A stretch of DNA of 64,000 nucleotides from Haladaptatus cibarius D43 (GTDB lineage: Archaea; Halobacteriota; Halobacteria; Halobacteriales; Haladaptataceae), in assembly GCF_000710615.1 (NCBI RefSeq), contig NZ_JDTH01000001.1, positions 372,001 through 436,000 on the forward strand, read 5' to 3'. Shown piece by piece: positions 12,536 to 21,969 of this stretch. A model generated the notes under the pieces. The model made no database searches and was not told the DNA's origin. It saw only the letters and a list, made by a program, of their open reading frames with translations. The translations under genes were made by a program, and so were the position numbers. Numbering within the stretch: position 1 is the first letter of the stretch; every line of letters starts with the position of its first letter.

Positions 12536-12615
12536 TCGTGACTATTTATATCGAAATGTAATAAACTCTTGCCAGCAGAAACGAACCGCTGGCAACCATT
12601 GCCGCGCCGAAAGTC

Positions 12616-12622
12616 TTTATAT
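12616..12622 (+). promoter_or_regulatory. TATA box of the arg leader ORF
   Basis: The AT-rich heptamer tttatat lies in otherwise G+C-rich sequence. Its centre is about 28 bases before the ATG at 12647. That is the spacing expected between an archaeal TATA box and the transcription start, so the transcript would start at or next to the ATG and be leaderless, as is common in haloarchaea. Confidence 0.55.
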
Positions 12623-12646
12623 GATCCAAGCCAGAATGGTTCGATA

Positions 12647-12742
12647 ATGTCGTGGACTCGCGCTACCGGGGTCGCCCCTGTCGTGAGTGACGAGTCCGCA
12701 TCCGACTCCTTCTGCGTGCGACGGCGACCGGGGCTTTTTTAG
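12647..12742 (+). CDS. Putative arginine leader peptide (31 aa) upstream of argG
   Basis: A 31-codon frame, ATG 12647 to TAG 12740-12742, with a TATA box at leaderless spacing. The product MSWTRATGVAPVV...FCVRRRPGLF has three adjacent Arg codons (CGA CGG CGA, 12719-12727). These lie inside the 3' arm of a terminator-like hairpin that is followed directly by T6. The first gene downstream is argG, for arginine synthesis, starting 147 bases after the stop. The arrangement resembles an attenuator leader peptide, but attenuation is inference. It could instead be an independent small gene or a small RNA, and argG may have its own promoter. Confidence 0.5.
   Translation: MSWTRATGVAPVVSDESASDSFCVRRRPGLF
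12674..12740 (+). terminator. Terminator-like hairpin with T6 inside the arg leader ORF
   Basis: GCCCC (12674-12678) pairs with GGGGC (12730-12734). After one mismatch, GTCGT (12680-12684) pairs with GCGAC (12724-12728, one G-U pair). The stem is followed at once by six T (12735-12740). A smaller hairpin, GAGTC/GACTC, at 12692-12708 sits in the loop. A competing hairpin GGGG-TCG-CCCC at 12668-12678 would use up the 5' arm, so the two folds exclude one another. Structure was read by eye, without energy calculation. Confidence 0.5.
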
Positions 12743-12851
12743 TCCCATTAATACCTATTCCACCCCGACCCGTCGTTTGTTCAACGCACCCTCAAACCGT
12801 ACCAACTCGCCGTTAGTCTATTCTCTGATATTATTTCTCAATAATTTGGGA

Positions 12852-12861
12852 AGAATTTAAG
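12852..12861 (+). promoter_or_regulatory. Candidate TATA box of argG
   Basis: agaatttaag resembles a haloarchaeal TATA element and lies about 30 bases before the chosen argG start at 12889, which would give a very short leader. If active, argG transcription does not depend only on read-through from the upstream leader ORF. Confidence 0.4.
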
Positions 12862-12888
12862 ATGGTGGAGTCCTTGGCAACGTCCACA

Positions 12889-14058
12889 ATGAAATCCGTT
12901 GCACTCGCCTTCTCGGGCGGTCTCGATACGACAGTATGCGTCCCACTCCTCGAAGAGGAGTACGACTACGACGAAGTAATCGGCGTCACTGTAGACGTGG
13001 GACAACCTGAAGAAGAATTTGCAGAGGCAGAGGAAACCGCGGAAGCGCTCAATCTGGAACACTACGTTGTGGACGCGAAAGACGCGTTCGCGGAACAGTG
13101 TCTCGACGCGGTGAAAGCCAACGCGACGTATCAGGGCTATCCGCTCGGGACAGCGCTCGCCCGCCCGGTAATCGCCGAAGCGATTCTCGACGTGGCGAAG
13201 CAAAACGACTGCGATGCCGTCGCGCACGGTTGTACCGGAAAAGGAAACGACCAGTTGCGTTTCGAGGCAGTGTGGCGCGCCTCCGATTTGGAAGTTATCG
13301 CCCCCGTGCGTGAACTCGGCCTGACCCGCAAATGGGAGATGGAGTACGCGGACGACCACGACTTGCCCGTGGAGGGCGGCAACGAAGGCGTCTGGAGCAT
13401 CGACACGAATCTCTGGAGTCGCTCCGTCGAGGGTGGCAATCTGGAAGACCCAGGCTACGTTCCGCCGGAGGACATCTACGAGTGGACGACGAAACCGGGT
13501 GCCGAAACCGAACTCGCCGAAATCGAGTTCGAGAACGGGAAACCCGTCGCCATCGACGGCGAATCCTACGATTCGGTCGAACTCATCGAATACCTGAACG
13601 AACTCGCTGGCAAACACGGCGTCGGCCGCACCGACCTCATGGAAGACCGCATGCTCGGCCTGAAAGTGCGCGAGAACTACGAACATCCGGCGGCGACGAC
13701 CCTTCTCAACGCGCACCAAGCCCTCGAAGGCTTGGTGCTGACGAAAGAAGAACGCTCCTCGAAGACCGGAATCGACCAGCAGTGGGCCGAAAAGGCCTAC
13801 GAGGGACTGCTTTCTGCACCCCTCGTGGACGCCCTCGACGGCTTCATCGACACCACGCAGGAGAAAGTTACCGGCACGGTGACGGTCAAATTCGAGGGTG
13901 GACAGGCCCGTCCGGTCGCCCGCGAGAGCGAGTATGCCGTCTACTCCGAGGACGCCGCTTCGTTCAACACCGAAACCGTCGGCAAAATCGAGCAGGCCGA
14001 CGCGACAGGTGTGGCGAAATACCACGGCTATCAGTCACGCTTGGCGAATAATGAGTGA
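12889..14058 (+). CDS. argG: Argininosuccinate synthase
   Basis: Condenses citrulline and aspartate with ATP to argininosuccinate, the penultimate step to arginine. It has 389 residues, a normal length. The PP-loop motif AFSGGLDTT lies at about residues 7-15. Conserved segments HGCTGKGNDQLRFE, SIDTNLWSRSVEGG and GRTDLMEDRMLGLK are present. ATG 12889 (MKSVALAFSGGL) is preferred over an ATG nine codons upstream because the family starts directly before the PP-loop strand. Its stop overlaps the argH start by 8 bases, so the two are translationally linked. Confidence 0.96.
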   Translation: MKSVALAFSGGLDTTVCVPLLEEEYDYDEVIGVTVDVGQPEEEFAEAEETAEALNLEHYVVDAKDAFAEQCLDAVKANATYQGYPLGTALARPVIAEAILDVAKQNDCDAVAHGCTGKGNDQLRFEAVWRASDLEVIAPVRELGLTRKWEMEYADDHDLPVEGGNEGVWSIDTNLWSRSVEGGNLEDPGYVPPEDIYEWTTKPGAETELAEIEFENGKPVAIDGESYDSVELIEYLNELAGKHGVGRTDLMEDRMLGLKVRENYEHPAATTLLNAHQALEGLVLTKEERSSKTGIDQQWAEKAYEGLLSAPLVDALDGFIDTTQEKVTGTVTVKFEGGQARPVARESEYAVYSEDAASFNTETVGKIEQADATGVAKYHGYQSRLANNE

Positions 14059-15547
14059 GCAAGGGAGTGGAATCGGGAGCGATGAAAGCGGAAACGGCGG
14101 AAACGGCGGAAACAGCGACAGTGATGTCGTCCGCGGCGACCGCTTCAGCGGCGGCCCCGCCCGTGCATTCCTCTCGTCGCTGTCCGCGGACGAGCGCATC
14201 TTCGCGGCAGACCTCGCGGTAGACCGCGCCCACGTCGTGATGCTCGCGGAACAGGGCATCATCGAAGACGAAACGGCGGGCGAGATTCTCACCGCGCTGA
14301 ACGTGGTTGAAGTGGATGGCCACGGGTCGCTTCCCGATGGCGAGGACGTTCACGCCGCAATCGAAACGTCGGTCGTTCAGAAAGTCGGGGGTGACGGCGG
14401 GAAGATGCACACCGCCAGAAGCAGGAACGACGAGGTTGCGACCTGCATCCGTTATCGCCTCCGCGAGGATATTTTGGGTGTGCTGGATGCCACACTCGCA
14501 CTCCGCGAAGCACTGCTCGAAACGGCGGAGTCGCACGCGAATACAGTGATGCCGGGCTACACACACCTTCAGCCTGCTCAACCAACCACGATCGGGCACT
14601 TCCTCGCGTCCTACGACCAGGCTATTTCGCGCGATACGGAACGCCTGCTGGACGCCTACGGAAGAGTGAACCAGTCGCCTCTCGGCGCTGCGGCATTCGC
14701 TGGAACGCCGTTCGATGTGAACCGCGAGCGCGTGGCCGACCTGCTCGGATTCGAATCGGTTTTGGGGAACTCGATGGACGCCTCGTCTGCCCGCGATTTT
14801 CTGGTAGAAACGGTTTCTGCGCTGGCGACCCTCGCCACGACGCTGTCCGGAATCGCGGAAGACCTCGTCATCTACTCGAATCGCGGGTTCGTGGAACTGT
14901 CGGACGACTACTCGTCCACGTCGTCCATCATGCCCCAGAAGAAAAATCCCGACACCCTCGAACTGGTTCGTGCGGTGGCGGGCGATGCGCACGCCGGACT
15001 GTCCGGTCTGCTTTCGACGCTCAAGGGACTTCCCCGCGCGTACAACCGCGACCTTCAGCGCGCGACGCCCCACGCGTGGGACGCCATCGACGCCGTGACC
15101 GACGCAGTCGAGGTCACGGCGGGCGCGGTGGCGACCGCAACGTGGAACGAGGACGTACTGGCCGAAGAATCCGCGGAGGGCTTTTCGACCGCAACCGGCG
15201 TCGCCGACCTGCTGGCCATGTGCGGCGTGCCGTTCCGCACCGCACACGAACTGGTTGCGACGGCGGGCGAGGCGGACTACGACGCGTTGGATTCCGCGGC
15301 GAAAGACGTGCTCGGCGCACCGCTCGCGGAGTACGTCCCCCGTGAGGAAGTCGAATCCGCGCTCGACCCCGATACGAGCGTCGAGATGCGCGATTCGCAC
15401 GGCGGCCCCGCTGGCGACCCGATGGCAGAAAGCCTGAGCGATGCGGAAGCGACGCTGGTCGTCCACGAAGAAGTGGCGGCCGAACTGGTCGAATCGCTCG
15501 ACGCCGCGAACGAACTGCTACAGACAGAGGTGAACGACTATGTCTGA
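14051..15547 (+). CDS. argH: Argininosuccinate lyase
   Basis: Splits argininosuccinate into arginine and fumarate. It has 498 residues and belongs to the fumarase/aspartase superfamily. The signature SSIMPQKKNPD is present near residue 294, with HTARSRNDEVAT and TVMPGYTHLQPAQP nearby. ATG 14051 overlaps the end of argG. The first 28 residues are a Gly/Ser/Asn/Asp-rich tail (GSDESGNGGNGGNSDSD) encoded by short repeats related to ggaaacggc. The tail is extra compared with the catalytic core that starts at RFSGGPARAF, and probably arose by local repeat expansion. Confidence 0.96.
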   Translation: MSEQGSGIGSDESGNGGNGGNSDSDVVRGDRFSGGPARAFLSSLSADERIFAADLAVDRAHVVMLAEQGIIEDETAGEILTALNVVEVDGHGSLPDGEDVHAAIETSVVQKVGGDGGKMHTARSRNDEVATCIRYRLREDILGVLDATLALREALLETAESHANTVMPGYTHLQPAQPTTIGHFLASYDQAISRDTERLLDAYGRVNQSPLGAAAFAGTPFDVNRERVADLLGFESVLGNSMDASSARDFLVETVSALATLATTLSGIAEDLVIYSNRGFVELSDDYSSTSSIMPQKKNPDTLELVRAVAGDAHAGLSGLLSTLKGLPRAYNRDLQRATPHAWDAIDAVTDAVEVTAGAVATATWNEDVLAEESAEGFSTATGVADLLAMCGVPFRTAHELVATAGEADYDALDSAAKDVLGAPLAEYVPREEVESALDPDTSVEMRDSHGGPAGDPMAESLSDAEATLVVHEEVAAELVESLDAANELLQTEVNDYV

Positions 15548-15555
15548 ACTGCCGC

Positions 15556-15570
15556 GACCCCTCCGGGGGC
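15556..15570. terminator. Small GC hairpin after argH
   Basis: CCCC-TCC-GGGG (15558-15568) lies ten bases after the argH stop and is followed by an AT-rich stretch rather than a long T-run. It may mark the end of the argGH transcript or an RNA-stabilising hairpin. Evidence is structural only. Confidence 0.3.
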
Positions 15571-15608
15571 ATCTATTTGAACACTAATCCGAACCGCGAA
15601 ATTCGACT

Positions 15609-15623
15609 TCTCACGCCGTGAGA
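15609..15623. promoter_or_regulatory. Perfect 15-bp palindrome upstream of lysW, candidate operator
   Basis: TCTCACG-C-CGTGAGA has perfect 7-base arms around one central base. It lies about 45 bases upstream of a TATA-like ggatttaag at 15660-15668 and about 75 bases before the lysW start. The position suits an activator or repressor site for the lysW-argF operon. No regulator is identified. Confidence 0.4.
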
Positions 15624-15695
15624 CGGAGGTCTGCGACTTTTCCCATAATTAATAACGATGGATTTAAGTCCGATAGCACGATAGGGGAGAGTACA

Positions 15696-15860
15696 ATGGC
15701 AGAATGCGTTGAGTGCGGGGCGGACGTACCCCTGCACGACGATTTGGAATCGGGCGAAATCATCGACTGTGCGACCTGCGGCGTGGAATTGGAAGTCATC
15801 GACGTGAACCCGCCAGTCCTCGACCGGGCACCCGAGCTCGAAGAGGACTGGGGGGAGTAA
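15696..15860 (+). CDS. lysW: Amino-group carrier protein LysW
   Basis: A 54-residue acidic carrier. The C-terminal glutamate of its EDWGE tail becomes linked to glutamate (or 2-aminoadipate), protecting the amino group through ornithine or lysine synthesis. A zinc finger is formed by CVEC (C4, C7) and CATC (C25, C28), and the tail is intact. ATG 15696 follows an AT-rich promoter-like stretch at about 15660. It is the first gene of the carrier-bound part of the arginine cluster, with ArgX next. Confidence 0.95.
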   Translation: MAECVECGADVPLHDDLESGEIIDCATCGVELEVIDVNPPVLDRAPELEEDWGE

Positions 15861-15908
15861 ATTGCGCGTCACTGACTCATCGAGCCAGTTGGCTCAGGAA
15901 ACTCAACA

Positions 15909-15912
15909 GGAG
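15909..15912 (+). promoter_or_regulatory. Ribosome binding site deciding the argX start
   Basis: GGAG at 15909-15912 is 8 bases before the GTG at 15921, an ideal Shine-Dalgarno spacing. It overlaps the alternative GTG at 15912, which argues for translation starting at 15921. Confidence 0.45.
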
Positions 15913-15920
15913 TGGTTCGC

Positions 15921-16781
15921 GTGCACGTAGGACTGCTCTACTCCCGTATCCGCAAGGACGAAAAGCTCCTGCTCGCCGAACTCCGCGACCGCGGGCACGA
16001 AGTGACCAAAATCGACGTGCGCAAGGAGACGTTCGATCTGACGGACGCGCCGGACACCTTCGCCAACCTCGACGTCGCCATCGACCGCTGTCTGGCGACG
16101 AGCAGAAGCCTGTACGCTACGCAGTTCTGCGAGGCCTACGGCATCCCCGTCGTCAACAGCCACGAAACGGCGGACATCTGCGCCGACAAGGTAAAGACCA
16201 GTCTGGCGCTCGCAGGGGCGGGCATCCCTACGCCTGCGACGAAGGTCGCATTTACGACGAACAGCGCGATGGAAGCCATCGAATCCTTCGGTTACCCATG
16301 CGTGCTCAAACCCGTCGTCGGGTCGTGGGGTCGCCTCATGGCGAAAATCGACTCGGAGAGTGCGGCCGAGGCCATCTTGGAACACAAGGCTACACTCGGC
16401 CACTACGAGCACAAGGTGTTCTACGTGCAGGAGTTCGTCGATAAACCCGGTAGGGACATCCGCGTGCTTGCAATCGACGGCGAACCGGTCGCGGCGATGG
16501 CCCGCCACGACGACCACTGGCTGACGAACGCCGCGAAAGGCGCGGAAACGACGACGTTCGAACTGGATTCGGAAGCGAAATCGCTGGTCGAGCAAGCCAG
16601 TGATGCGGTCGGCGGCGGCCTGCTCGGCGTCGATTTGATGGAAACCGAATCGGGCTACACGGTTCACGAGGTGAACCACACGGTCGAGTTCAAAGCGCTG
16701 AACGATGCGGTTGACGTGGACGTTCCTGCCGAAGTCGTCGATTGGTTGGAATCGAAGGTGCAGATGGAGGTGGTGGCCTGA
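15921..16781 (+). CDS. argX: Glutamate-LysW ligase ArgX (LysX family)
   Basis: ATP-grasp enzyme of 286 residues that couples glutamate to the C-terminus of LysW. It has the RimK/LysX layout: an N-terminal VGLLYSRIRKDEKLLLAEL, the ATP-binding lysine segment YPCVLKPVVGSWG, the YVQEFVDKPGRDIRV strand, and the metal ligands in ETESGYTVHEVNHTVEF. The GTG at 15921 is chosen from the Shine-Dalgarno spacing; a GTG three codons upstream is the alternative. The stop overlaps the argC start by one base. Confidence 0.93.
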   Translation: MHVGLLYSRIRKDEKLLLAELRDRGHEVTKIDVRKETFDLTDAPDTFANLDVAIDRCLATSRSLYATQFCEAYGIPVVNSHETADICADKVKTSLALAGAGIPTPATKVAFTTNSAMEAIESFGYPCVLKPVVGSWGRLMAKIDSESAAEAILEHKATLGHYEHKVFYVQEFVDKPGRDIRVLAIDGEPVAAMARHDDHWLTNAAKGAETTTFELDSEAKSLVEQASDAVGGGLLGVDLMETESGYTVHEVNHTVEFKALNDAVDVDVPAEVVDWLESKVQMEVVA

Positions 16782-17857
16782 TGGCCGCCGCGACCGAAGA
16801 GCAGACCGTGGAGAGCGAAGAAACGCTCTCCGCCACCGTTATCGGAGCCAGCGGCTACACCGGCGGCGAACTGCTTCGCTTGCTCTCCGGCCACCCCAAC
16901 TTCGAGGTGGCCCAAGCCACGAGCAGGGAGTACGCCAACAAGACGGTTGGCTCGGTACATCCGAACCTTCGCGGGGCAAACCTGCGCTTTTCGGAACCCG
17001 ATGACCTTGAATCCGTGGACGTGCTATTCGCGGGAACGCCCCACGGCGTCTCGATGGAGCACGTAGACGAGTTCGGGGAATCCGCAGACACCGTGGTCGA
17101 TTTGAGCGCGGACTTCCGCCTCGAAACCGAGGCAGAGTACGACGAGTGGTACGACGGCCACACCTGCCCGGAATACTTGGACGAGGCAGTGTACGCCCTG
17201 CCCGAAATATTCCGCGAGGAACTGCCCGGTGCAGACCTCATTGCCGCGGGTGGCTGTAACGCCACCGCGACGATTCTCGGCCTGTATCCCCTGTTCAACG
17301 CCGGAATCCTGTCCGGAAGCGAGCAAATCGTCGTTGACGTGAAAGTCGGTTCGTCGGAAGGCGGCGCGAGTCCGAGCAAGGCGTCGAGCCATGTCGAACG
17401 TTCGGGTATCGTTCGTCCATACGCACCGATAGGTCATCGCCACGAGGCTGAAATCGAAGCGATTCTGGGAACCAGCGTCTCGTTTACGGCCCACGCCGTG
17501 GACATGGTTCGCGGGGCATCCGCGACGAGTCACGTTTTCCCCGACTCACCGGTTTCGAAGGGTGACCTCTGGAAAGCCTACCGAAACTGCTACGAGGACG
17601 AACCGTTCGTCCGCCTCGTCGCGGGCGGAAGCGGCGTCTATCGCTATCCCGAACCCAAGGCAGTCGCCGGGACGAACAACGCAGAGGTCGGGTTCGAACT
17701 CGACCCGAGCAACAAGCGCGTGGTCGTCTTCAGCGCCATCGACAACCTGATGAAGGGGTCGGCGGGGCAGGCCGTCCACGCAGCGAACGTCGCATTAGGA
17801 TTCGAGGAAACCGCCGGACTGGCGTTTCAGGGGCTTCACCCCGTGGGGTCGCCATGA
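16781..17857 (+). CDS. argC: [LysW]-glutamyl-phosphate reductase (ArgC/LysY)
   Basis: NADPH-dependent reductase of 358 residues making LysW-bound glutamate semialdehyde. The Rossmann motif VIGASGYTGGELLRLL is near residue 20. The catalytic cysteine is in AAGGCNATATILGLYP, and the conserved GHRHEAEIE and GTNNAEVGFE segments follow. About 15 residues precede the usual start; ATG 16781 immediately follows the argX stop. It overlaps argB by four bases (ATGA). Context and LysW pairing assign it to the carrier-bound pathway rather than free N-acetylglutamate. Confidence 0.95.
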   Translation: MAAATEEQTVESEETLSATVIGASGYTGGELLRLLSGHPNFEVAQATSREYANKTVGSVHPNLRGANLRFSEPDDLESVDVLFAGTPHGVSMEHVDEFGESADTVVDLSADFRLETEAEYDEWYDGHTCPEYLDEAVYALPEIFREELPGADLIAAGGCNATATILGLYPLFNAGILSGSEQIVVDVKVGSSEGGASPSKASSHVERSGIVRPYAPIGHRHEAEIEAILGTSVSFTAHAVDMVRGASATSHVFPDSPVSKGDLWKAYRNCYEDEPFVRLVAGGSGVYRYPEPKAVAGTNNAEVGFELDPSNKRVVVFSAIDNLMKGSAGQAVHAANVALGFEETAGLAFQGLHPVGSP

Positions 17858-18819
17858 ATGGAAAACAGTACACGAAAGACGAACTGCTTTCCGCACACGA
17901 CCACCTCATCGACAACGACAACGTTCCGGAGGATGCAGAGGACGACCTTTGGACTGATGGTGGCATCATCGATGACGAAGACGAAAATGCCCCAATCGTC
18001 GTGAAAATTGGCGGTGCTCGCGCGGTGAATCCGGCAGGCGCGCTGGGCGACATCGCCCACCTGACCGCAAACGGCGAGGACGTGGTGGTCGTCCACGGCG
18101 GTTCGACCGCCGTGGACGACACGCTCGAAGCACTGGGCGAAGAGCCCGAATACGTGGAATCGCCGAACGGCATCGTCGGGCGCTTTACTGACGAGCGCGC
18201 GATGGAGGTGTTCGAGATGGTCATGCCCGGCAAACTCAACACCGACCTGACCGCGGATCTGCAGGCCGAAGGCGTCCGCGCAGTCGGGCTTTCCGGCGTT
18301 GATGGTTCGCTCCTCACTGGGCTAAGAAAGTCCGCCGTCAGAGTCGTCGAAGACGGCAAGAAGAAAATCCGCCGCGGCGACCACTCCGGAAAAATCGAGT
18401 CGGTGAATGCCTCGCTGTTGGAAACGCTCCTCGCGGAGAACTACACGCCTGTCGTGACGGTGCCGATGCTGGCCGACGACGGAACGCCCGTCAACGCCGA
18501 CGCTGACCGCGCCGCCGCCGCAATCGCTGGCGCACTTGGTGGCGAACTGGTCGTCTTGACGGACGTTCCGGGACTGCTCGAAAATCCGGACAACGAGACG
18601 ACGCTCATCGAGCAGGTCGCCACTCCTGCGGAGATGGCGACCGCGAAGGACGTCGCGGAAGGGTTCATGACGAAGAAGGTCATGGCGGCCACGGAGGCCC
18701 TGAACGGCGGGGCGAAATCGGTCGTTATCGCCGACGCGAACAACCGCGACCCGATTACCGCGGCCCAGAAGGGCCACGGAACGAAGTTCACGCCTGCCGC
18801 AGTGGAGGGACCACAATGA
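17854..18819 (+). CDS. argB: [LysW]-glutamate kinase (ArgB/LysZ) with acidic N-terminal extension
   Basis: Amino-acid kinase of 321 residues that phosphorylates LysW-glutamate. The nucleotide-binding start of the fold, VVKIGGARAVNPAG, is complete, as are VHGGSTAV and NADADRAAAAIAGALG. The catalytic Lys is K51, whereas in relatives it lies near residue 5, so the protein carries about 46 extra acidic residues (ending IIDDEDENAP). No ATG lies closer in frame, and the ATG at 17854 overlaps the argC stop as at other junctions. The extension therefore appears translated; its role is unknown. Confidence 0.93.
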   Translation: MNGKQYTKDELLSAHDHLIDNDNVPEDAEDDLWTDGGIIDDEDENAPIVVKIGGARAVNPAGALGDIAHLTANGEDVVVVHGGSTAVDDTLEALGEEPEYVESPNGIVGRFTDERAMEVFEMVMPGKLNTDLTADLQAEGVRAVGLSGVDGSLLTGLRKSAVRVVEDGKKKIRRGDHSGKIESVNASLLETLLAENYTPVVTVPMLADDGTPVNADADRAAAAIAGALGGELVVLTDVPGLLENPDNETTLIEQVATPAEMATAKDVAEGFMTKKVMAATEALNGGAKSVVIADANNRDPITAAQKGHGTKFTPAAVEGPQ

Positions 18820-19949
18820 GCGAGTTCGTCTACTCCCAGAAACCCATTCCAATCGAGCGTGGCGAGGGGGTCTATCTCTACGCCGAGGACGGAACCGAAT
18901 ACCTCGACTTCGGCGCGAGTTACGCGGTTTCGCCGGTCGGCCACTGCCACCCCGAAGTGGTTTCAGCGGTGCAGGAACAGGCCGCGGAATTGCTGTTCGT
19001 TCACGCTTCGTATCCGACGGAATCGCGCGATTCGCTGTACGAGAAGTTGGCGACCGTCGCGCCTTCCGGCCTCGAAAACGTCTGGCTCTGTAACTCCGGA
19101 ACGGAGGCGAACGAAGCGGCGCTGAAGTTCGCCAGAAGTGCCACCGGCAAGTCAAAAATCGTCGCCGCGAAGCGCGGCTTTCACGGGCGCACCATGGGGT
19201 CGCTCTCGGTGACGTGGAAGCCGAAATATCGCACCCCGTTCGAACCGCTCGTGGACGACGTGGAGTTCGTCACCTACGGCGACGAGGACGAACTCGCGGA
19301 AGCAGTAGACGACGACACCGCCGCGGTCATCCTCGAACCCGTGCAGGGCGAGGGCGGCGTCAATCCCGCGACGAAGAGCTATCTCCAAACCGCGCGCGAC
19401 CTGACCGCCGAATCGGGCACGGCTTTGCTGTTCGACGAGATTCAGACCGGACTCGGCCGGACGGGCGCGTTCTGGGCATGCGAACACGCCGGAGTGACGC
19501 CGGACATCCTCACGACTGCGAAAGGATTGGCCAGCGGTCTGCCAATCGGCACGACCCTCTGTGCCGACTGGATTGCCGAGGACGCCGGGTCGCACGGTTC
19601 GACCTTCAGCGGGAGTCCGGTCGTCAGCGCGGCGGCGAAGGCGACCCTCTCGGTACTCGTCGAAGAGAACCTTCCGGCACACGCGGCGGAGATGGGCGAA
19701 TATCTTCAGTCGGAACTGCACGCCGCGAACCTCCCAGTTCGTGATATTCGCGGTCACGGCCTGCTGGTCGGAATCGAAGTGAAACGCGGCGCGAACCGTC
19801 TCGTGAAGGAACTCGCGCTCTCTCACCAAATCCTCGCACTTCCGGCGGGACGGAGCGTTCTGCGTCTGCTTCCGCCACTGACCGTCGAAACGGCGCATCT
19901 CGACAGGGTAGTTGCGGCGCTGTCGGACGTGTTGGGAGGGGAAGAATGA
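18816..19949 (+). CDS. argD: [LysW]-glutamate-semialdehyde aminotransferase (ArgD/LysJ)
   Basis: Class III PLP aminotransferase of 377 residues, making LysW-bound ornithine with glutamate as donor. Visible motifs are YLDFGASYAVSPVGHCHPEV, CNSGTEANEAALKFAR, the aspartate of LLFDEIQTGLGRTG, and the PLP lysine in LTTAKGLASGLPIG. Start and stop both overlap neighbouring genes by four bases, as expected in a tightly coupled operon. Confidence 0.95.
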   Translation: MSEFVYSQKPIPIERGEGVYLYAEDGTEYLDFGASYAVSPVGHCHPEVVSAVQEQAAELLFVHASYPTESRDSLYEKLATVAPSGLENVWLCNSGTEANEAALKFARSATGKSKIVAAKRGFHGRTMGSLSVTWKPKYRTPFEPLVDDVEFVTYGDEDELAEAVDDDTAAVILEPVQGEGGVNPATKSYLQTARDLTAESGTALLFDEIQTGLGRTGAFWACEHAGVTPDILTTAKGLASGLPIGTTLCADWIAEDAGSHGSTFSGSPVVSAAAKATLSVLVEENLPAHAAEMGEYLQSELHAANLPVRDIRGHGLLVGIEVKRGANRLVKELALSHQILALPAGRSVLRLLPPLTVETAHLDRVVAALSDVLGGEE

Positions 19950-21037
19950 CGCTATCGAAAGCCATGACAGCACCGAAAATCGCGCAATCAGACGCACACG
20001 ATTTGCTGGTCGAACTGGTCGAAACGCCGTCAGTGTCGGGAAACGAGGAGATTTGTGCCGAACTGCTCGCCTCGTTCTTCGAGGAACAGGGCCGTGAGGC
20101 GTGGATAGACGACGCCGGAAACGTCCGCGCGCCGGGAAACGGAGTCCTGCTCACGTCGCACATCGACACGGTTCCGGGGGAAATCCCGGTCGAAGTCGAT
20201 GGCGGCGTTCTCTGGGGTCGCGGAAGCGTGGACGCCAAAGGCCCGCTCGCGGCGATGGCGGTGACAGCAATCCAGACAGGAGCGAGTTTCGTCGGTGTCG
20301 TTGGCGAGGAAACCGACTCACGCGGTGCGCGTCACCTCGTCCAAAACTACGAGGAACCCGAATTTGTTGTCAATGGCGAACCAAGTGGTTGGGACGCCGT
20401 CACGCTCGGCTATCGTGGCTTCCTCTCGGGAACCTACTCTGTTTCCGTCGAATCCGTCCACACTTCGCGGCCGGAAGCGAACGCTATCCAGCACGCGGTC
20501 AGTTGGCTGTCGAAAATCGAATCGGCCTTTGACTCAAACGCCGATTCGACGGGAAAGGCGGGTTCGACGGACGAGTCGGGTTCCGTCTTTGAATCCGTGA
20601 CTGCGAAACCGGTTTCGTTCGACGGTGGACTCGCGGCAGATGGTTTGGCAACGGAAGCCGAAATCGAAGTCCAGTTCAGAATCCCGCCGGGGACGACGGC
20701 GGACGAGATTTGTGAGATTGCCGAATCCGAACTGGATGCGGGGGAAGTCTCGTGGCACGATTCGATTCAGCCGACCATGGCCAGTCCGCGCACAGAATTG
20801 GCGCGGGCGTTTCGCGTGGCGATTCGAGGCGAGGATGGCGACCCGAGTTTGCTCCGTAAAACCGGAACCAGCGACGCGAACATCTACGCCGAGGCGTGGG
20901 ATTGCCCGGTCGTGACCTACGGGCCGGGCGATTCGTCGCTCGACCACACGCCGGACGAACACCTCGAACTCGCGGAGTTCGACGAGTCCGTGGCCGTCCT
21001 TTCGGCGGTCTGTGAATCGCTGGGGGAGAAACTATGA
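19946..21037 (+). CDS. argE: [LysW]-ornithine hydrolase (ArgE/LysK, M20 family)
   Basis: Zinc metallopeptidase of 363 residues that releases ornithine from LysW. The metal ligand HIDTVPG and the WGRGSVDAKGPLAAM segment are in the first half. The catalytic GEETDSRGAR and the TYGPGDSSLDHTPDEHL metal ligand are also present. Around residues 195-215 there is a low-complexity Ser/Gly/Asp insert (DSNADSTGKAGSTDESGS) absent from compact relatives. The first ATG (19946) overlaps argD; a second ATG eight codons... within MTLSKAMTAPK is possible. Confidence 0.93.
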   Translation: MTLSKAMTAPKIAQSDAHDLLVELVETPSVSGNEEICAELLASFFEEQGREAWIDDAGNVRAPGNGVLLTSHIDTVPGEIPVEVDGGVLWGRGSVDAKGPLAAMAVTAIQTGASFVGVVGEETDSRGARHLVQNYEEPEFVVNGEPSGWDAVTLGYRGFLSGTYSVSVESVHTSRPEANAIQHAVSWLSKIESAFDSNADSTGKAGSTDESGSVFESVTAKPVSFDGGLAADGLATEAEIEVQFRIPPGTTADEICEIAESELDAGEVSWHDSIQPTMASPRTELARAFRVAIRGEDGDPSLLRKTGTSDANIYAEAWDCPVVTYGPGDSSLDHTPDEHLELAEFDESVAVLSAVCESLGEKL

Positions 21038-21969
21038 CTCGCCACTTCCTCGACGTGGACGACCTGTCCCCGAGCGAACTGGCCGACGTGCTTTCGCTCG
21101 CGGCCGAGTTCAAGAAAAACGGCTCGCCGTCAGAACTCTCGGGCCAGACGCTCGCCATGTTGTTCGAAAAGCCGAGCACGCGCACTCGTCTCTCGTTCGA
21201 GACGGGAATGACGCAACTCGGCGGGCACGCCGTCTTCATGGGGCCGGAACACACCCACCTCGACCACGGAGAACCCGTCTCGGATACGGGGAGAGTGCTC
21301 TCGCGTTACGTGGATTTCGTCATGGGGCGCGTGTTCGACCACGACTGTCTGGTCGAGATGGCAGAGTACGCGACGGTTCCGATAATCAACGGCCTGTCGG
21401 ACATCGCGCATCCGTGTCAGTCGCTCGCCGATTTGCTCACGATTCGGGAGTTCGTCGAGGCACAAGACGCCTCGGAACCCGCGAGCGGGCATGGCCCGCG
21501 AGCCTTCGAAGACGTGTCGGTCGCGTGGGTCGGCGACGGAAACAACGTGCTCAACTCCTTCGCAATCGCGGCTTCGACGGTCGGACTCGACCTGACGGTT
21601 GCGACGCCTGAAGGGTACGAACCGTCGAGCGACGCACTCGGGCGAGCGAATGACCGCGGTCGCTCGCCTGCGCTGACGAACGACCCTGAGGAAGCGGTGG
21701 CTGACGCGGACATCGTCTATACTGACGTGTGGGTCAGCATGGGCGAGGAGGACGAGCGCGAGGAGAAATTGGCCGCGTTCGATGGTTTCCAACTGAACGA
21801 TGACCTGCGTCCCGATTCGGCGCATGTCATGCACTGTCTGCCCGCCCATCGCGGCGAAGAGATTACTGGCGGCGTGCTGGAAAGCGACCGCTCGTTGGCG
21901 TGGAATCAAGCCGAAAACAGGCTTCACGCACAGAAGGCGTTGTTGGCGTATCTCGACGAAAAACGGTAG
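21034..21969 (+). CDS. argF: Ornithine carbamoyltransferase
   Basis: Makes citrulline from ornithine and carbamoyl phosphate. It has 311 residues, the normal length. The carbamoyl-phosphate loop FEKPSTRTRLSFE is at about residues 47-59. HPCQSLADLLT, the ornithine-binding DVWVSMG and the MHCLPAHRGEEIT motif are all intact. It overlaps argE by four bases and ends the arginine cluster. The segment DASEPASGHGPRAFED is a small insert coded by GC-rich near-palindromic DNA, and a hairpin lies at 21641-21668. Confidence 0.96.
   Translation: MTRHFLDVDDLSPSELADVLSLAAEFKKNGSPSELSGQTLAMLFEKPSTRTRLSFETGMTQLGGHAVFMGPEHTHLDHGEPVSDTGRVLSRYVDFVMGRVFDHDCLVEMAEYATVPIINGLSDIAHPCQSLADLLTIREFVEAQDASEPASGHGPRAFEDVSVAWVGDGNNVLNSFAIAASTVGLDLTVATPEGYEPSSDALGRANDRGRSPALTNDPEEAVADADIVYTDVWVSMGEEDEREEKLAAFDGFQLNDDLRPDSAHVMHCLPAHRGEEITGGVLESDRSLAWNQAENRLHAQKALLAYLDEKR

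Follow-up and report, generated by a model that had tools for sequence, protein, structure and literature searches.

The argG gene of haloarchaea is probably controlled by a cis-acting arginine leader-peptide attenuator, encoded as a short Arg-rich open reading frame (ORF) immediately upstream. The window analysed is a stretch of 64,000 nucleotides of Haladaptatus cibarius D43 (NCBI RefSeq assembly GCF_000710615.1, contig NZ_JDTH01000001.1), and coordinates below are positions in this window on the plus strand. The initial annotation of this DNA had proposed that an Arg-codon leader ORF regulates argG through ribosome stalling, and this proposal is now strongly supported by the class-wide presence of the ORF, its reading frame, its Arg codons and its position at the head of the operon.

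The argininosuccinate synthase gene argG (12889..14058) was assigned by NCBIfam NF010392 / TIGR00032 with a score above the cut-off, and its product is 99% identical to ArgG of H. litoreus. It heads a complete LysW-type operon of nine genes (argG-argH-lysW-argX-argC-argB-argD-argE-argF), which according to NCBIfam encodes the LysW-to-arginine pathway; argH, lysW/argW, argX, argC, argB, argD, argE and argF occupy 14051..21969 as contiguous or overlapping ORFs. The leader ORF ends 146 nt 5' of argG and sits at the head of the operon for its own amino acid. It spans 31 codons (12647..12742), from the ATG at 12647-12649 to the TAG stop at 12740-12742, and encodes the peptide MSWTRATGVAPVVSDESASDSFCVRRRPGLF, whose Arg-rich C terminus reads CVRRRPGLF directly before the stop. 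Direct inspection of the sequence confirmed the length of the ORF, its leaderless TATA spacing, the Arg codons at 12719-12727 and argG downstream, all with the coordinates originally assigned to them.

The leader promoter, P1 (12607..12621), consists of a BRE-like CCGAAAG (12607-12613) and a TATA box TTTATA (12616-12621) located 31 nt 5' of the leader ATG, the spacing typical of leaderless haloarchaeal genes, and CGAAAG together with TTTAWA at about -31 is kept in most of the leaders compared. Directly 5' of these elements lies a palindrome, GGCAA-CCA-TTGCC (12591..12603, without strand), which to judge by its sequence may be a transcription-factor operator for the arg operon. Sequences resembling GCAANNNTTGC stand at an equal distance from the promoter in Halorussus, Halogeometricum, Halogranum, Haloarchaeobius and other genera.

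The regions upstream of argG were inspected in 30 relatives and in 80 named haloarchaeal loci retrieved via ArgG similarity, and nearly all of them contain a short ORF, usually of 22-46 codons, with an Arg cluster at its end. The peptides include MATRSTLATFAPLRAAAVRRRRPAL in Haloferax, MSRLTAPTHVFSGSGAAGRRRRRPGSL in Halarchaeum, MTQTHRSGASVLTGGYSILRRPRPGR in Natronomonas and one ending in RRPRRGVRPPRPASGAARRPAPSGQ in Halorubrum. Lack of conservation of the ORF or of the Arg run in relatives, which the initial annotation had named as counting against its proposal, was thus checked with the opposite outcome, both being conserved. At least three Arg residues within eight codons were found in 79 of 79 leaders as compared to 55% in shuffles, a figure to be read with the fact that the ORFs had been picked partly on Arg content. 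As this selection also involved the TATA box, two tests free of such bias were performed.

For the frame test, the ATG lying 24-37 nt 3' of a TATA-like box was chosen at 45 loci with Arg content disregarded. Such an ATG is present at 41 of them, and in 41/41 it begins an open ORF that reads the conserved CGA codons as Arg; of the remaining ATGs in these stretches, 8 of 24 share the frame of the Arg codons, which is the chance value of 1/3. The binomial p of 3e-20 assumes independent loci, which is not fully true, and becomes about 1e-12 with about 25 independent lineages. This test replaced the counting of Arg codons per frame, because Arg codons turn up in every frame of GC-rich DNA; by such counts, a weak comparison, frame 0 is strictly highest in 16/30. 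We regard the frame test as our best evidence for translation of the leader ORF through its Arg codons.

The Arg-codon and hairpin core was also searched with covariance models, R1 built from 14 leaders and a second version, R2, from 38, in 292 genomes of 77 genera drawn evenly across the class Halobacteria. R1 matched in 196/292 genomes (60/77 genera), and its best matches were all (30/30) located 145-195 nt 5' of the ArgG SGG motif. R2 matched in 221/292 genomes and 66/77 genera, and its single match in the genome of the window is the argG leader. The 71 of 292 genomes without an R2 match at E 0.01 are partly explained by divergent forms that score low, e.g., in Halorubrum. In a phylum-wide sample, R1 gave three matches outside the class, all weak (E 0.004-0.009), which were treated as chance. 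In the five loci of Halohasta and Halonotius the upstream ORFs are Arg-rich but lack the standard core. One Haladaptatus leader (locus L009, genome G001) is one base short, which shifts its CGA run out of the frame of the ATG with both stems intact; the cause may be a sequence error or decay. The window segment 12300-13000 had no match to an Rfam covariance model up to E = 10. No similar leader was found before trpD (tryptophan) or leuA/ilvB (branched-chain amino acids) in this genome and its relatives. At its 5' end, leuA of the genome of the window (locus L172, minus strand) has the expected TATA-spaced ATG in a different frame from the gene body past a G7 run; an assembly error, a frameshift or phase variation are possible reasons.

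The Arg codons of the leader, CGA CGG CGA (12719..12727), are the proposed stall site. Across the leaders CGA makes up 65% of Arg codons (440/674), while in argG of the same loci it accounts for 5 of 1157 (0.4%); in the arg operon of the window it is 4/120 (3.3%). The rare codon clusters at the place where stalling would have consequences, as in classical attenuators, and RNA pairing could explain part of this bias.

Two conserved hairpins flank the Arg codons. Stem 1 (arms 12652-12660 and 12691-12699) lies within the ORF 5' of the codons, and in 30/30 lineage representatives its region exceeds synonymous-codon shuffles in stability (mean z -1.51, Stouffer -8.3). Its best perfect stem measures 6-15 bp and is built from 29 different 5' arms in the 30 lineages, with a combined p of 4e-14 against synonymous shuffles. 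Stem 2 (12730..12746) pairs GGGGC (12730-12734) with GTCCC (12742-12746) across a loop that contains the U tract along with UA from the stop codon, and begins within a few nucleotides of the last Arg codon. It occurs in the forms GGGGUC/GACCCC, GGGGC/GCCCC, GGCCC/GGGCC and GGGCC/GGCCC and covaries: in an alignment of 38 leaders fitted to the structure, 97.7% of cells are paired and 15 are changed on both sides compared to 4.3 in shuffles, and in the ungapped seed alignment A3 pairing is 100%, with five cells changed on both sides compared to 2.1. RNAalifold on MAFFT alignments gave almost nothing because the stems shift register between genera. The stop codon, most commonly UAG (44/79), usually overlaps the loop and 3' arm of stem 2 or abuts the stem. 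A G-free, C/U/A-rich tract follows directly (12747..12766) and is G-poor in relatives as well, with a G content of 5% at +6 to +11 past the leader stop in 79 leaders; it may be where a termination factor loads.

The peptide outside the Arg codons is variable. Its N terminus and post-Arg residues differ freely between genera, while stems 1 and 2 persist with altered letters, and the post-Arg residues (PGR, PAL, RAL, PGSL, PGLF) track the class of stem 2. Since these residues change with the form of stem 2, it is the RNA and the Arg codons that are conserved and not the peptide. An arrest peptide of the fungal arginine attenuator type, with arginine sensed via the nascent chain, would suit the arginine pathway and the similar RRRPG/RPRRRAL ends seen in several genera; however, with post-Arg residues following the stem-2 class and an unconserved N terminus there is no kept peptide motif, and we give this explanation little credence. 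Conservation of both stems beyond the peptide would likewise agree with a structured regulatory RNA that is bound by a protein or ligand and contains the ORF incidentally. This is just as improbable, because an incidental ORF would place the TATA-spaced ATG in frame with the Arg codons in one third of cases rather than in every one, and the spacing of P1 is of the leaderless type. A freely varying peptide with persistent stems fits leaders that sense codons, and a codon-sensing attenuator is the reading we follow below.

The hairpin originally proposed as mechanism, which overlaps the Arg codons, did not withstand comparison. It does exist in the window, with 10 of 11 pairs between 12674-12684 and 12724-12734 followed by six T, but it is unconserved within Haladaptatus, where eight genomes show 76% pairing and zero compensatory change. 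The T6 tract is confined to this strain, the other seven Haladaptatus having TTTTCT or TTTTCC. The elements conserved instead are stem 1, stem 2 and the G-poor tract. The GGGG-TCG-CCCC hairpin described as its competitor is also present and is located inside the loop of stem 1. Stems 1 and 2 are conserved yet not mutually exclusive, and no common terminator/antiterminator pair was found. Other candidates between leader and argG were rejected as well. For an intrinsic terminator, runs of at least four T occur in some lineages (TTTT at about +50 in Haloferax) and none in Halorussus. For a UCGUCG-like segment further downstream, pairing to the Arg codons reached a mean z of -0.8, compared to -0.36 for a control segment; this pairing is strong in Halorubrum, Natronomonas and a few other lineages only, is unsupported by pair counts in Haladaptatus, and in Halorussus the sequence is near-invariant and hence uninformative. 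A third hairpin in Halorussus, GACGA..UCGUC, is partial and lacks covariation.

A TATA-like TTTAAG (P2, 12856..12861) stands 33 nt 5' of the argG ATG and, from its sequence and comparison with relatives, is likely a separate leaderless argG promoter. A TATA-like box 31-37 nt 5' of argG is found in Haladaptatus, Haloferax, Halobellus and Halorubrum and is missing in Halorussus, Halarchaeum, Natronomonas, Halomarina and Halocatena. In the latter five genera P1 should therefore serve argG, with the leader within its mRNA, and a start of argG solely at its own promoter appears excluded in lineages without P2 only. In Haladaptatus and Haloferacales the likely P2 means that part of argG transcription would bypass the leader. 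In H. volcanii, 111 genes have both a leaderless and a long-leader transcript (PMC4983044). The presence of P2 in these two groups would also agree with a short transcript or peptide acting in trans as a small RNA or small protein, argG being served by its own promoter; yet many genera keep the leader without P2, the element is found only before argG and the peptide is unconserved, which makes this the least probable of the explanations considered. An AT-rich block, TTATTTCT...GAATTTAAG (12820-12861), lies at and before P2; it is conserved in Haladaptatus, has counterparts in Haloferacales and is missing from Halorussus and other genera. The intervals from leader to argG in Haloferax, Halogeometricum, Halobellus and Halogranum share another conserved block, TATAGGCATCTCTA (loci L042, L048, L051, L052, L065 and L074). 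In Halorussus and others, the untranslated stretch from the leader stop to argG is 100-150 nt long.

From these elements we infer stalling, the direction of its effect and a termination step as follows. RNA polymerase would start at P1, and the leaderless mRNA would open with the leader ORF. With plentiful Arg-tRNA, the ribosome would pass the rare CGA codons, stop at the UAG in or beside stem 2 and depart, whereupon stem 2 would fold, the G-poor tract would lie bare and the transcript would fail to yield productive argG mRNA, in the version we favour through factor-dependent termination before argG, as by aCPSF1/FttA. With Arg-tRNA in short supply, the ribosome would stall on the CGA codons with its footprint over the 5' arm of stem 2, beside the G-poor tract, and would either keep RNA polymerase coupled or block the termination factor, so that transcription could proceed into argG and the rest of the operon. 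Where present, P2 could supply a basal, leader-independent level of argG. The main rival to factor-dependent termination retains the same stalling sensor with a post-transcriptional output, in which refolding of the P1 mRNA would alter argG translation initiation or mRNA stability. No conserved terminator was found, Halorussus and others have the 100-150 nt untranslated leader together with downstream pairings to the Arg codons that differ by lineage, and speF orf34 acts partly in this way (PMC6386406). We nevertheless consider this output unlikely, as no sequestering structure was found at the argG start and transcripts from P2 would escape it.

Attenuation by leader peptides is textbook knowledge for bacteria and needs ribosomes close behind RNA polymerase. 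In haloarchaea, transcription-translation coupling has been proposed (PMC8576121). Archaeal termination proceeds at poly-U or through aCPSF1/FttA on nascent RNA, and a review of the field poses the regulatory use of coupling as a future question and leaves attenuation and leader peptides unmentioned (PMC8116511). According to a study of transcription start sites in Haloferax, control by structured leaders is not typical for haloarchaea (PMC4983044). The open-access literature searched contained no archaeal attenuator, leader peptide or argG leader; Haloferax ribosome-profiling lists of small ORFs, which were outside its scope, may include the leader. We suggest tentatively, and a little short of an even call, that this is the first archaeal amino-acid leader-peptide attenuator, class-wide, in which a stall on rare CGA codons blocks aCPSF1/FttA termination and coupling serves as the signal. 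A compact, ancient, class-wide arginine leader would offer a system for the study of coupling, archaeal termination and codon-level sensing of amino acids, and the leader also occurs in the genetically tractable genus Haloferax.

The bacterial trp, his, leu, ilv, thr and phe attenuators likewise begin a biosynthetic operon with a short leader ORF. They share with the argG leader a run of rare codons for the product amino acid, the hairpins on either side of these codons and the variability of the rest of the peptide. The classical attenuator amino acids are not known to include arginine. Unlike the bacterial systems, the argG leader is archaeal, lies on a leaderless mRNA, has its stop codon in or beside the second hairpin and is without a conserved GC hairpin and U-tract terminator or antiterminator. 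In tnaC of E. coli, a ribosome stalled near the stop similarly masks a C-rich factor-binding site beside the end of the ORF, but there the stall depends on the nascent peptide and free tryptophan, the operon is catabolic and the factor is Rho, which as far as we know is absent in archaea. The fungal arginine attenuator peptide (the arg-2/CPA1 uORF) also places an arginine-pathway gene under a short upstream ORF; it has a conserved sequence, stalls at high arginine and acts on scanning ribosomes, and such a conserved peptide is not seen in the haloarchaeal leader. The speF leader of Salmonella (orf34/speFL) resembles the argG leader in its short uORF with two consecutive rare Arg codons; their slow translation when arginine is low increases expression downstream, and factor-dependent termination is involved (PMC6386406). 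It differs in that it serves ornithine decarboxylase and not arginine synthesis, is bacterial, encodes a conserved DUF2618 peptide domain and is a 516-nt leader under RNase G control (PMC6386406); the HIRRTxHIMM core of this domain is absent from every leader peptide read. The sequence-derived anatomy of the argG leader, namely an ORF in the Arg frame, rare codons for the end product, flanking hairpins, the operon-head position and a free peptide, fits the ribosome-mediated attenuation type. We keep it apart from the classical attenuators since a mutually exclusive terminator/antiterminator was sought and did not emerge, and the missing common terminator suggests that the effector step is archaeal.
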